From an uncultured Bacteroidia bacterium (GTDB lineage Bacteria > Bacteroidota > Bacteroidia > J057 > CALLMJ01): a stretch of 35,807 bases of DNA. Shown here one piece after another: positions 24,383 to 29,580 of this stretch. How positions within the stretch are numbered: position 1 is the first letter of the stretch; each line of letters starts with the position of its first letter. Both the position numbers and the translations under genes were made by a program. The stretch is taken from positions 1 to 35,807 of the forward strand of contig CALLMJ010000153.1 of assembly GCA_938006875.1 (NCBI GenBank). The letters run 5' to 3'. The notes beneath the pieces are model-generated. The model made no database searches and had not been told where the DNA came from. It worked only from the letters and a program-made list of their open reading frames with translations.

Positions 24383-25498
24383 ATGATAAAACAATCGTTG
24401 TTAAGTTTCATTTTATTAGGGTTATTTTCTGTAATAAATGCACAAAATTCTAATGAAGACATATTAATCCCGTTTAGAAAAGGCACAAAATGGGGCTTTG
24501 TGGATAAAAATAAGAAAATAGTATTAGAGCCTAAATTTGAAAATTTATGGTATTTACAAGAAGGTTTAGCTAAAGCTCAAAAAGGTTTAAAATGGGGTTT
24601 TGTCGATAAATTTGGAAAAACAGTAATTAAATTTAAGTACGATGCTGCTGACAACTTTTATGAAGGCTTAGCTTTGGTAAAAAGTTCCGGTATAGATGAT
24701 GAAGATATGGAAGAGGAAGATGTTTCTGAAATGTGTGGTTTTGTAGATAAAACGGGTAAAGAAGTAATTTTATTAAAATATGAAGATGCAGTTAGATTTT
24801 ATGAAGGCTTTGCGGCTGTAAAATCAGGAGGAAAATGGGGGTTTATCGATAAAATGGGTAAAGAAATCGTACCCTGTAAATATACTTACGGATTTCAATT
24901 TAGTGATGGAATGGCAAGAGTAAAACAAGGAAAAAAATGGGGGTTTGTGGACGAAACTGGAAATGAAGTTATTGCTTGTAAATATGAAGATGCAGGGAAT
25001 TTTTCTAGTGGTTTAGCACCTGTGAAACTTAATGGAAAATGGAGTTTTATTGATAAATCAGGAAAAGAAATCATTCCACCACGCTATGAAGACGCAAGAT
25101 CTTTTAGTGAGGGTTTTGCTGGGGTTAAACTTAATGGGAAATGGGGGTTTATTGATAAATCAGGAAAGGATATTATTTTGTTTAAATATGAAGACGTTAA
25201 ACCTTTCAGTGAGGGCATGGCTGGATTTAAAGAAAACGGTAAATGGGGATTTTTTGATAAAACCGGCAAAAAATTAGTTCATCAAAAATATGATGATGTT
25301 GGGCAGTTTAGTGATGGAATGGCTTCTGTTGAATCCATTAAAGGCAAAGGAGTAGGTTTTATTGACAAAACTGGAAAAGAAGTAATTCCATTTCAATACG
25401 AAAGCCACACCCAATTTACAAATGGAATTGCTTTTGTGAAAAAGAACGATAAAGGTGGATATATCGATAAAAAAGGAACCACTTACTGGGAAGATTAA
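24383..25498 (+). CDS. WG-repeat protein, exported
   Basis: The 371-aa protein has a signal peptide (LLSFILLGLFSVINAQ). The rest is about nine to ten consecutive WG repeats of roughly 33-40 residues: (K/G)WGF(V/I)DKxGKEV(I/V)xxKYEDAxxFxEGxAxVK. One repeat is interrupted by an acidic insert (DDEDMEEEDVSEM, about residues 110-122). The motif builds a beta-propeller- or solenoid-like scaffold and in Bacteroidota is often found in secreted or periplasmic proteins of unknown role. The internal DNA repeats are diverged rather than identical, so recent expansion is not obvious. No catalytic residues are visible; a binding or structural role is inferred. Confidence 0.9.
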   Translation: MIKQSLLSFILLGLFSVINAQNSNEDILIPFRKGTKWGFVDKNKKIVLEPKFENLWYLQEGLAKAQKGLKWGFVDKFGKTVIKFKYDAADNFYEGLALVKSSGIDDEDMEEEDVSEMCGFVDKTGKEVILLKYEDAVRFYEGFAAVKSGGKWGFIDKMGKEIVPCKYTYGFQFSDGMARVKQGKKWGFVDETGNEVIACKYEDAGNFSSGLAPVKLNGKWSFIDKSGKEIIPPRYEDARSFSEGFAGVKLNGKWGFIDKSGKDIILFKYEDVKPFSEGMAGFKENGKWGFFDKTGKKLVHQKYDDVGQFSDGMASVESIKGKGVGFIDKTGKEVIPFQYESHTQFTNGIAFVKKNDKGGYIDKKGTTYWED

Positions 25499-25692: not shown

Positions 25693-28338
25693 ATGAATTA
25701 TAAAATTCGTGTTGGAATTTTGATGGGGGGTTCTTCTCGTGAAAGAGAAATTTCTTTTGCCGGCGGTAGAACCGTTTATGATAACCTCAATCGGTCTATA
25801 TTTGAACCTGTTCCTATTTTTGTTGATAGCTTTGGAAATTTCTTTCTTTTAAACTGGCAATACCTCTATAAAGGTACCATTCGTGATTTTTTTCCACCCC
25901 ATCATTTGTATCCCAATTCTGATTTTCAATATTACCAAGAGCAAATACCTAACGCTCAAATTGTTGATTTTGAAGAAATTGGAAAATGGATTCCTTTCCA
26001 CGAACTAAAATACTTTATTGATTTTGCTTTTCTTACTTTGCATGGTTTAAAAGGGGAAGACGGTTCCATTCAAGGATTTTTAGAATGGTTAAATATTCCT
26101 TATTCGGGTACAGGAGTTTTGGGTTCTGCCATTGGAATTGATAAAGTGGTACAAAAAAAATTACAACAATCTATGGATTATAGGGTTTTGCCTTATATTC
26201 TATGGAACACCCAACAGCCTTTTCCGACTTTTGAAGTTCAAACTCAAATTGGATTTCCTTTTGTTTTGAAAAATCCTTTACAAGGTTCTAGCATTGGAAC
26301 GGTTGTTGTTCATTCTATTAATGATATTTCTGTTGCCATTCAAAAAGTGCTTCTGAATACAACAATCAAACTTAAAGAATGGAGAAGTTATACACAGGAA
26401 CAAAAAATCAAACTTTGCAATACTTGGAACGATTTAAAAAATTCGTTTCACTTTCCTTTGTTTGCTGAAAAACAAAAAGTTTATAGTCCTGATGAACTAC
26501 TTCAATTTTTAGATAATTATTCTGATGATTTTGTAGAAATTCAAGCATTAGATTCCCCTCAACAAATTCTCATTGAAAAATATATTGAAGGAACAGAATT
26601 TTCTGTAATTGTGATTCATGATGAAGAAGGAAACCCGATTGCTTTGCCACCAACAGAAATTCGTAAAAAAAACAATGTATTTGATTATGACAGTAAATAT
26701 TTACCCGGTAGAGCCAATAAAGTAACTCCAATAGATTTACCAATAGAAAAAATTTTGAAAATCACCTCAGAAGCAGAAAAATTAATGACGGATTTTCATT
26801 TTAATGTGTATGCACGAATTGATGGTTTTATTACTAATAAGGATACCATTTATTTTAATGACCCGAATACTACCAGCGGTATGTTGCCATCGTCTTTTTT
26901 CTTTCATCAAGCGGCAGAAATCGGTTTTAATCCTTCACAATTTTTGAGTTATATTATTTACATTTCTTTGATTACTCGTAAAAAAGAAGGTCGTTTTTAT
27001 GAATTAGATACTTATATTGAACGCTTAAAAAAAGGATTTTCTTATCAAACACAAGAGTTGAGTACTCAAGAACGTATCGCTGTGATTCTAGGGGGGTATT
27101 CTGCTGAAAGACATATATCCGTAGAAAGTGGACGAAATATTGTCGAAAAATTACAAGCCAGTGGCAAATATCAAGTAAATCCCTTATTTTTATTAAAATC
27201 CGAAAATTCTGTTTATGGTTTTGAATTGTATAGTATTCCTCCTCATTTGCTTTTTAAGGATAATGCTGATGATATTGCAATAGCCATTCAAAAGTATTTA
27301 CTCAATCCTACTCAACATCCTTATACGGAATACATACAAACAAGAATACAAAAATTACAAGATTTATTTCATTTGCAAAAAGTTGATATCCAATTATATC
27401 CCGTTGAGGAGCTAAAGAATCATTTTGATTCTGTTTTTATAGCGATTCATGGACGCCCTGGTGAAGATGGTCAGTTACAAAAAATTTTAGAATATCAAAA
27501 TATTCCTTATAACGGTTCTCAGCCCATTCCTGCTGAAATTGCTATGGATAAGTTTCAATGCAATGAATTATTACTTCAAAACGGTGTATTCGTTGCTAAT
27601 CATTTTTTGGTAAAAAAAGAAGATTTTGAAAAGAACTCCAACCAACTTATTGAGCAAATTGAACAGAAACTAGATTATCCCATGATAGCCAAGCCTAATG
27701 ATGAGGGTTGTTCTGCGGCAGTAAAAAAAATTACTAATCGTGAAAAATTATTAGCCTATTTAGAAGTTTCATTTTCTAAAAATTCTCATGTTCTTGAAAA
27801 ATATCGCGATTTACTTCAAATTTCACCTCTCGAGGAGTTCCCTCAAAAAGAAGAATGCTTGTTAGAAACCTTTATTGAAGAAAGTGATGAGTATAAGTTG
27901 ATGGAAATTACTGTGGGATTTTTGACCCATTGGAAAAATAACGAAATTTTTTACGAAGTTTTTTCTCCGTCAGAAACTATTAGGGCTAACGAAGTTTTAT
28001 CTCTGGAAGAGAAATTTTTAGCGGGGCAAGGAATGAATATTACACCAGCGAGGTTTTCCCAAAATTCAGAAGAAAACCAACGTATAGAAAATATTGTTAA
28101 GCAGGAAATTGAAAAAGCCGCAAAAATTATTGGACTAACAGGTTATGCAAGGATAGATGCTTTTGTTAAAATGTTTAAAAATAGCAAAGTAGAAGTTTGG
28201 GTTATTGAAGCCAATACATTACCCGGAATGACACCCTCAACTTGTATTTTTCATCAAGCCGCTATCAATGGTTATAATCCATTGCAATTCATAGAAAAAA
28301 TTTTAGAGTTTGGGAGAATGAGAGTTCAAATGATTTAA
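25693..28338 (+). CDS. Tandem fusion of two D-alanine--D-alanine ligase-like ATP-grasp units
   Basis: The 881-aa protein contains two Ddl-like units, about residues 1-450 and 458-881; single Ddl enzymes are about 300-370 aa. Unit 1 has GGSSREREIS (E17), TLHGLKGEDGSIQGFLEW, GSSIG (198-202), the omega loop FDYDSKYLPG (330-339), ARID (374-377) and NDPNTTSGMLPSS, with D390 where Ddl has the metal ligand Glu. Unit 2 has GGYSAERHIS (E472), AIHGRPGEDGQLQKILEY, EGCSAAV (671-677, GSSxG changed), no recognisable omega loop, YARID (818-822) and IEANTLPGMTPST, with E839 and N841 intact. Such proteins ligate D-Ala to D-Ala for peptidoglycan in the cytoplasm. Whether both units, one, or neither are active is unknown, and they may have split roles. 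The next gene, a permease, begins 6 bp downstream. Confidence 0.88.
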   Translation: MNYKIRVGILMGGSSREREISFAGGRTVYDNLNRSIFEPVPIFVDSFGNFFLLNWQYLYKGTIRDFFPPHHLYPNSDFQYYQEQIPNAQIVDFEEIGKWIPFHELKYFIDFAFLTLHGLKGEDGSIQGFLEWLNIPYSGTGVLGSAIGIDKVVQKKLQQSMDYRVLPYILWNTQQPFPTFEVQTQIGFPFVLKNPLQGSSIGTVVVHSINDISVAIQKVLLNTTIKLKEWRSYTQEQKIKLCNTWNDLKNSFHFPLFAEKQKVYSPDELLQFLDNYSDDFVEIQALDSPQQILIEKYIEGTEFSVIVIHDEEGNPIALPPTEIRKKNNVFDYDSKYLPGRANKVTPIDLPIEKILKITSEAEKLMTDFHFNVYARIDGFITNKDTIYFNDPNTTSGMLPSSFFFHQAAEIGFNPSQFLSYIIYISLITRKKEGRFYELDTYIERLKKGFSYQTQELSTQERIAVILGGYSAERHISVESGRNIVEKLQASGKYQVNPLFLLKSENSVYGFELYSIPPHLLFKDNADDIAIAIQKYLLNPTQHPYTEYIQTRIQKLQDLFHLQKVDIQLYPVEELKNHFDSVFIAIHGRPGEDGQLQKILEYQNIPYNGSQPIPAEIAMDKFQCNELLLQNGVFVANHFLVKKEDFEKNSNQLIEQIEQKLDYPMIAKPNDEGCSAAVKKITNREKLLAYLEVSFSKNSHVLEKYRDLLQISPLEEFPQKEECLLETFIEESDEYKLMEITVGFLTHWKNNEIFYEVFSPSETIRANEVLSLEEKFLAGQGMNITPARFSQNSEENQRIENIVKQEIEKAAKIIGLTGYARIDAFVKMFKNSKVEVWVIEANTLPGMTPSTCIFHQAAINGYNPLQFIEKILEFGRMRVQMI

Positions 28339-28344
28339 GAAGTT

Positions 28345-29580
28345 ATGAAATTACCTTTTTACATAGCCAAAAAATACCTTTTTTCCAAGAATTTACCTAA
28401 AGCCATTAATTTGATTTCTGGTATTGCTTCTATTGGTATCATGTTTGGCTGTATTGCACTAATTTTGGTCTTATCTGTTTTTAACGGTTTTTATGCTTTA
28501 ATTCATGATTTATTTCACCAATTTGACCCACACATCAAAGTTACTGCAATAAAAGGAAAATTCTTTCAACCTCCAGATTATTTTTCTGATTGGGTAAAAA
28601 ATGAAACTGAAATTCAAGATTTTGCATATACTTTGGAAGGTAAAGCCATGCTGAAATACTTTGATAAACAAACCGTTGTTATGGTAAAAGGTGTAGATCA
28701 TAAATTTTTGAAGGTTTCACAAGCCAATCAAATGGTGAAATATGGGGAATATCGTTTAAGAGGAAACCAAAATGAAAATTTAATAGTTCTCGGAATGGGT
28801 GTAGCTTATTATACCAATGCTAATCTAAAAGATGAACTCAATGCTATGCAACTTTATTCTATTTCCAATCAACATGATTTATTAACCGAAACAGAATCTG
28901 CGGTGATTATGCAAAATGTATTTCCTTCGGGAATTTTTAGTATCCAAAAAGATTATGATGATAAATTGGTAATTGTTCACAAAAATGTAGCAAAAAAATT
29001 ATTTGAAGTTGAAAATGAAATTTCCGCTATTGAAATTAAGTTAAAAAATTTGAATGATTTACAAAAAATTAAACAAAAATTACAAGAAAAATTAGGAAAA
29101 GATTTTAAGGTTCAAACATTTTATGAACAACATGAAACACTTTTCAAAGTAATGGAAAATGAAAAAAAGTTTAGTTACATCGTTTTAGCTTTGTTATTAC
29201 TGATAGCATCTATCAATATTGTAGGTTCTTTATCTTTGATTGTAGTACACAAAAAAAGAGACATTGGTGTAATGCTTACTATGGGTTTTCGTCCCAAACA
29301 AATTCAACAAATATTTTTATTAAATGGGTTGATTACAGGTTTTTTAGGATTAATTCCTGGAATTTTTTTGGGTAGTTTCATAGCTTGGTTACAAAGTGAA
29401 TACGGCTTTATTAAACTTCAAGGTGCAGAAAGTTTTATTATTGACCACTATCCCATGAAACTCCATTTAAATGATGTTTTGATTACAGCAATAACAGTTA
29501 TTTTCTGGGTTATTTTAGCATCATGGTATCCTGCCTATCAAGCTACAAAAACAACCGTTGTGGATAACTTAAAGTTGTAG
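28345..29580 (+). CDS. FtsX/LolC-LolE-like ABC transporter permease
   Basis: The 411-aa protein opens with YIAKKYLFSKNLPKAINLIS, the typical start of the LolC/E family, followed by a first helix (GIASIGIMFGCIALILVLSV). A large periplasmic domain spans about residues 45-270. Three C-terminal helices of the FtsX type follow (YIVLALLLLIASINIVGSLS; LLNGLITGFLGLIPGIFLGS; DVLITAITVIFWVILASWYP), with the conserved KKRDIGVMLTMGFRPKQI between the first two. In proteobacteria LolCDE releases outer-membrane lipoproteins. No LolD-like ATPase is in the window. It lies 6 bp after the double-Ddl gene and is likely co-transcribed. Its stop codon directly abuts the stop of the convergent glycosyltransferase. 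Confidence 0.9.
   Translation: MKLPFYIAKKYLFSKNLPKAINLISGIASIGIMFGCIALILVLSVFNGFYALIHDLFHQFDPHIKVTAIKGKFFQPPDYFSDWVKNETEIQDFAYTLEGKAMLKYFDKQTVVMVKGVDHKFLKVSQANQMVKYGEYRLRGNQNENLIVLGMGVAYYTNANLKDELNAMQLYSISNQHDLLTETESAVIMQNVFPSGIFSIQKDYDDKLVIVHKNVAKKLFEVENEISAIEIKLKNLNDLQKIKQKLQEKLGKDFKVQTFYEQHETLFKVMENEKKFSYIVLALLLLIASINIVGSLSLIVVHKKRDIGVMLTMGFRPKQIQQIFLLNGLITGFLGLIPGIFLGSFIAWLQSEYGFIKLQGAESFIIDHYPMKLHLNDVLITAITVIFWVILASWYPAYQATKTTVVDNLKL

Follow-up and report, generated by a model that had tools for sequence, protein, structure and literature searches.

Ddl, the D-Ala-D-Ala ligase, is an essential enzyme that is targeted by the drug D-cycloserine and has been studied as a single-unit homodimer. 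Carbamoyl phosphate synthetase CarB consists of tandem ATP-grasp halves that catalyze different reactions. Position F261 of LmDdl2 is presumably equivalent to Y216 of DdlB. In the Ddl of Leuconostoc and Lactobacillus, a Tyr/Phe residue sets dipeptide versus depsipeptide activity (PMC5996685). Ddl enzymes dimerize recurrently, with a longer C-terminal helix extending to the partner subunit (PMC6899670). The plastid DDL of plants is a fusion of two DDL genes (PMC9954125), and the moss Ddl was reported to be closest to homologs from the Fibrobacteres-Chlorobi-Bacteroidetes group (PMC9434261). Literature searches, whose coverage lacked most subscription journals, returned no description of a tandem Ddl in bacteria.

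The locus described here lies in a 35,807-nucleotide contig of an uncultured Bacteroidia bacterium (the window). Two Ddl-like units were fused in a single open reading frame of 881 aa with an ATG start (25693-28338, + strand). As an earlier note on this DNA had proposed, both units belonged to one protein: the Pfam models PF01820 (Ddl N-domain, E 1.4e-45) and PF07478 (C-domain, E 6.2e-53) each matched the reading frame in two places. Each half matched DdlA/DdlB (PF01820 plus PF07478, TIGR01205) in fold and in the order of its domains, as well as in nearly all residues that bind ATP and D-Ala, and the pathway role was likely to be the same. Unlike DdlA/DdlB, the fusion contained two diverged units per chain, with E270D and P275S in unit 1 and S150C, Y216F, and S281T in unit 2. 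It was thus a tandem-unit form of a known enzyme family, and tandem DDLs were already known in plants. The tandem architecture of the plant and moss DDL resembled that of the Bacteroidota fusion, but the plant and moss proteins are eukaryotic and mostly plastid targeted. The Phe-type depsipeptide Ddl of Leuconostoc and Lactobacillus has, like unit 2, a Phe where dipeptide ligases have Tyr216; however, it is a single-unit enzyme, and unit 2 differed from it in the remaining omega loop, C150, and T281. CarB likewise has two specialized ATP-grasp units in one chain, but its family, its reactions, and its tunnel are different, and the likeness is an analogy only.

The features of the locus are listed in Table 1. 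All of the residues named in the earlier note were correctly placed, namely E17, GSSIG (198-202), DYDSKYLPG (331-339), D390, EGCSAA (671-676), E839, and N841. The N-module motif FKDNADDI of unit 2 (27253-27276) was nearly invariant among the fusions and had no counterpart in DdlB.

Table 1. Features of the tandem Ddl gene in the window (residues in parentheses follow E. coli DdlB numbering)
Feature	Position	Strand	Description
Tandem Ddl fusion gene	25693..28338	+	881 aa; sole Ddl of the genome
Unit 1, aa 1-432	25693..26988	+	Ddl N-domain and ATP-grasp core
Unit 1 key residues			E17, H117, K151, K193, GSSIG 198-202, K335-Y336, R375, D377, D390 (= E270), N392, S395 (= P275), S401
Unit 1 GSSIG loop	26284..26298	+	Canonical; translation and DdlB alignment
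Unit 1 omega loop DYDSKYLPG, aa 331-339	26683..26709	+	Canonical K215, Y216
Unit 1 DPNTTS, aa 390-395	26860..26877	+	E270D and P275S, invariant in full fusions
Linker helix, aa 433-458	26989..27066	+	Sequence variable, mean pairwise identity 0.20
Unit 2, aa 459-881	27067..28335	+	Ddl N-module and ATP-grasp core
Unit 2 key residues			E472, H586, K620, K667, C673 (= S150), S674, K774, F775 (= Y216), R820, D822, E839 (= E270), N841, P844, T850 (= S281)
Unit 2 FKDNADDI, aa 521-528	27253..27276	+	Near-invariant, fusion-specific N-module motif
Unit 2 GCSAA, aa 672-676	27706..27720	+	Replaces GSSVG; C150 invariant
Unit 2 altered omega loop EEKFLAG, aa 772-778	28006..28026	+	K215 retained, Y216F
Unit 2 EANTLP, aa 839-844	28207..28224	+	Canonical E270, N272, P275

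An AlphaFold2 model of the fusion, built on an alignment of 26 fusions, had a pLDDT of 88 and a pTM of 0.88, with no segment below 50, and its closest folds in the PDB were Ddl enzymes. The whole protein scored 370 bits against the NCBIfam Ddl model (cut-off, 245.65), a value that is the sum of the two units; either half alone missed the cut-off (204 bits for unit 1 and 163 bits for unit 2). Models of Van-type D-Ala-D-Lac and D-Ala-D-Ser ligases remained far below their cut-offs with the whole protein and with each half.

Among 55 long fusion loci, 41 were immediately followed on the same strand by a gene of one cluster, whose representative had a PASTA domain. The window differed, as a gene for an FtsX-like permease (28345-29580) started 6 bases downstream of the fusion; a gene for a WG-repeat protein (24383-25498) was located upstream.

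In the genome that carries the window (97% complete), a profile search with PF01820 matched the two N-domains of the fusion and nothing else. Further PF07478 matches, considered as candidates for a second Ddl elsewhere in the genome, fell outside the Ddl N-domain set and were presumably other ATP-grasp enzymes. Within the set formed by this genome and its sampled relatives, the full-length fusion was found in 26 genomes and a contig-split copy in one more; each of these genomes had exactly two PF01820 N-domains, both belonging to the fusion. Almost all of the other sampled relatives had one single Ddl of about 310 to 430 aa, and the PF01820 search found the fusion together with an ordinary Ddl in none of the set. 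Likewise, no Ddl besides the fusion was present in 27 genomes that were checked from mostly named loci (Hymenobacter, Pontibacter, Rufibacter, Adhaeribacter, Flammeovirga, Marinoscillum, Rhodocytophaga, Shiella, and metagenome-assembled genomes). Thus, the fusion takes the place of the ordinary Ddl in every genome with an intact fusion that we checked. The full fusions were about 900 aa long and 41 to 73% identical, and they occurred across many Bacteroidota families, including those of Hymenobacter, Pontibacter, Rufibacter, and Flammeovirga, which answered positively whether other Bacteroidota share the architecture.

The peptidoglycan pathway was otherwise present, with seven Mur-ligase domains in the genome of the window, so D-Ala-D-Ala synthesis is needed. 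Because the fusion was the sole Ddl in this genome, it presumably holds the essential peptidoglycan role that the earlier note had assigned to it if no other Ddl existed. Reading of the sequence placed one of the Mur-ligase domains in a fusion of MurF and alanine racemase; as these two share one reading frame, a pair of fusion proteins serves the D-Ala branch in this genome.

Three further observations concern the distribution of the gene. One family in the order of the window had a single Ddl of about 360 to 430 aa in place of the fusion, which suggests that the fusion was replaced by another type of Ddl. One fusion homolog (65967-68429 of its own contig) had nine in-frame stops across the match, and its genome had no better intact match in the same search; this homolog was apparently a pseudogene or a frame-shifted copy. 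A mobile or phage origin was also considered and rejected: searches of plasmids and phages yielded only distant single-unit Ddls among the matches listed, except for a Bernardetia replicon that carried a truncated form of 623 aa.

We aligned 39 fusions and 20 single Ddls of the same class to E. coli DdlB, whose numbering is used below, and scanned 80 fusion loci that overlapped the 39 aligned fusions. In both units, all ATP-binding residues were retained, and K97, K144, E180, E187, K215, R255, D257, and N272 were invariant (39/39 in each case). E15, S150, and Y216 form the D-Ala-binding triad. Unit 1 retained this triad in all 39 fusions and had D270, S275, and F282 fixed; unit 2 had E, C, and F at the triad sites, retained E270 and P275, and had C150, F216, and T281 fixed, again in 39 of 39. 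All 20 single Ddls contained S150, Y216, E270, P275, and S281. The second scan found D270 and S275 in unit 1 and the GCS motif in unit 2 at 80 of 80 loci. Given this recurrence in both data sets, the residue pattern is far beyond chance.

The earlier note had read these differences as complementary losses. The halves did diverge at complementary sites throughout the clade, but the changes were fixed substitutions (39/39 and 80/80) rather than losses. The GSSxG signature was indeed absent from unit 2, but a conserved motif of the GCSSA type, with S151 kept, stood in its place. The omega loop of unit 2, which had been called lost, was replaced by the equally conserved LSLEEKFLAGxGxNxTP, in which the catalytic Lys was kept (K215 = K774) and Phe occupied the Y216 position. 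Complete retention of catalytic residues in each half, the finding named as contrary to complementary loss, applied to the ATP-binding residues of both halves but not to the substrate-triad and metal residues.

Estimates of dN/dS from close Hymenobacter and Pontibacter pairs were about 0.02 to 0.11 for both ATP-grasp cores, and the mean pairwise identity across all fusions was 0.49 for the core of unit 1 and 0.54 for the core of unit 2. Both halves are under equally strong purifying selection. The low dN/dS and the core identity of 0.54 indicate that unit 2 is not a decaying remnant, and together with the residue conservation, the dN/dS values ruled out a decaying pseudo-enzyme.

A search of 241 genomes from the order of Flammeovirga revealed many proteins of about 560 to 650 aa, and in 32 of these genomes this truncated form, with one recognizable N-domain, was the only Ddl. 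The truncated protein consisted of unit 1 and a tail homologous to the N-module of unit 2 (hhalign, 99.7%, E 2e-26); the match of the same tail to the N-module of unit 1 was weaker (E 4.9e-6). The tail was predicted to be a folded module (block pLDDT, 86-96; pTM, 0.90). In trees, including trees with the loop columns removed, the truncated forms were one clade nested inside the full fusions, and the unit 1 sequences of the full fusions were grouped as one in 0 of 200 bootstrap trees; forcing them together gave an AU p value of 0.098 and was formally not rejected. The direction from full fusion to truncated form is therefore well supported by these sequences but not proven. An open frame of about 713 to 718 aa, a possible intermediate, was explained by a broken frame or by the end of a contig.

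Asp replaced E270 in unit 1 of all 39 fusions and of all 32 truncated forms. Unit 1 of the truncated lineage otherwise had P275 (32/32) and G191 (31/32), both canonical, and L282 (25/32), so that D270 was the exception in a loop of canonical type. Read plainly, these residues mean that Ddl function tolerates D270 and that the acceptor loop of unit 1 went back to its usual form when the core of unit 2 was lost; the link between an intact unit 2 and a noncanonical unit 1 loop comes from essentially one loss event. A disabling effect of D390 is at odds with 32 genomes whose only Ddl is a derivative of unit 1 with the same Asp, and the truncated sole-Ddl lineage made it unlikely that D390 renders unit 1 inactive.

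The two units were unlinked in two small genomes. One of them, of 1.8 Mb, carried whole genes for unit 1 (475 aa) and unit 2 (about 420 to 438 aa) on different contigs. The other, of 0.7 Mb, also encoded the units in two separate genes, and the frame of unit 1 contained one TAG inside the matched stretch. The unit pairs of the two genomes clustered together in the tree (99% for unit 2), so the separation may have been one event. The position of P275 in the separate unit 1 was A in the 1.8-Mb genome and S in the 0.7-Mb genome. The separate unit 2 of the 0.7-Mb genome had a canonical GSSVG, not GCSSA. That genomes this small have kept both units suggests that each is required and that they can act in trans.

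On balance, we think it probable, with moderate confidence, that this sole Ddl is an obligate pseudo-heterodimer in which unit 1 forms D-Ala-D-Ala and unit 2 is an ATP-using partner of altered specificity. The two Ddl units are covalently joined and have differentiated, and each would depend on the other. Unit 1, which is of the Tyr type with an intact D-Ala1 triad, would most likely carry out D-Ala-D-Ala formation. Unit 2 would provide a second site that still binds ATP but whose substrate pocket is altered (C150/F216/T281), and as an obligate partner it may use a related substrate or run an ATP cycle of its own that is coupled to unit 1. The two units might pack within the fusion as in a dimer, and Ddl dimers with a C-terminal helix that reaches the partner (PMC6899670) fit the linker helix predicted in the fusion. 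Among the options raised in the earlier note, one active half and one partner half of different specificity was the best, if unproven. The simplest competing view is that both units are ordinary D-Ala-D-Ala ligases, that the fusion just ties the usual homodimer together, and that the differences are tolerated drift. The ATP-binding residues and R255, D257, and N272 retained in both units agree with that view, as do the recurrent dimerization and the partner-reaching helix (PMC6899670), but S150, Y216, E270, P275, and S281 differ in opposite directions, fixed in 39 of 39 fusions and invariant in 20 of 20 ordinary Ddls, and we consider it unlikely.

A similarly low probability applies to the proposal that unit 2 is a Phe-type, depsipeptide-like ligase for D-Ala-D-Lac or another D-Ala-X, which would place two specificities on each polypeptide. 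F at Y216 in 39 of 39 second units matches the Tyr/Phe switch of lactic acid bacteria, but the match is a lead only because the surrounding loop differs: in the remaining omega loop and at C150 and T281, unit 2 is unlike both Ddl and Van ligases. In addition, no Van model passes its cut-off, and we know of no D-Lac stem peptide from these bacteria. The unit 1 sequences of full fusions had several noncanonical residues in the acceptor and metal loops, and unit 1 could be the weaker half. In another reading, unit 2 might be catalytic in full fusions and unit 1 regulatory or structural, its canonical residues having been regained after the loss of the unit 2 core. E270, P275, and G191 are canonical in unit 2 and not in the unit 1 of full fusions, and in the truncated lineage unit 1 again has the canonical P275 and G191. 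However, unit 1 retains the full D-Ala1 triad and the omega loop and is the unit left in the truncated lineage, and unit 2 lacks S150 and Y216, which makes this reversal of roles quite unlikely. A composite active site across the two halves, another of the earlier options, would account for the complementary substitution pattern but is very improbable: each half has a complete ATP site, unit 1 works without the unit 2 core in 32 genomes, the halves are separately encoded in two small genomes, and to our knowledge Ddl active sites lie inside one subunit. A more far-reaching version of the pseudo-heterodimer reading, in which unit 1 makes D-Ala-D-Ala, unit 2 makes a different D-Ala product or is an ATP-driven obligate regulator, and the plastid tandem DDL of plants descended from the Bacteroidota fusion, is speculative and rather doubtful as a whole.

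A large bacterial group that includes cultured genera relies on a two-unit Ddl with specialized halves, and three natural experiments are on hand, namely the fusion, the separate genes, and unit 1 with a remnant. With them it becomes possible to test for a different function of a second Ddl active site, the path from an obligate homodimer to a heterodimer, and the origin of the plant tandem DDL.
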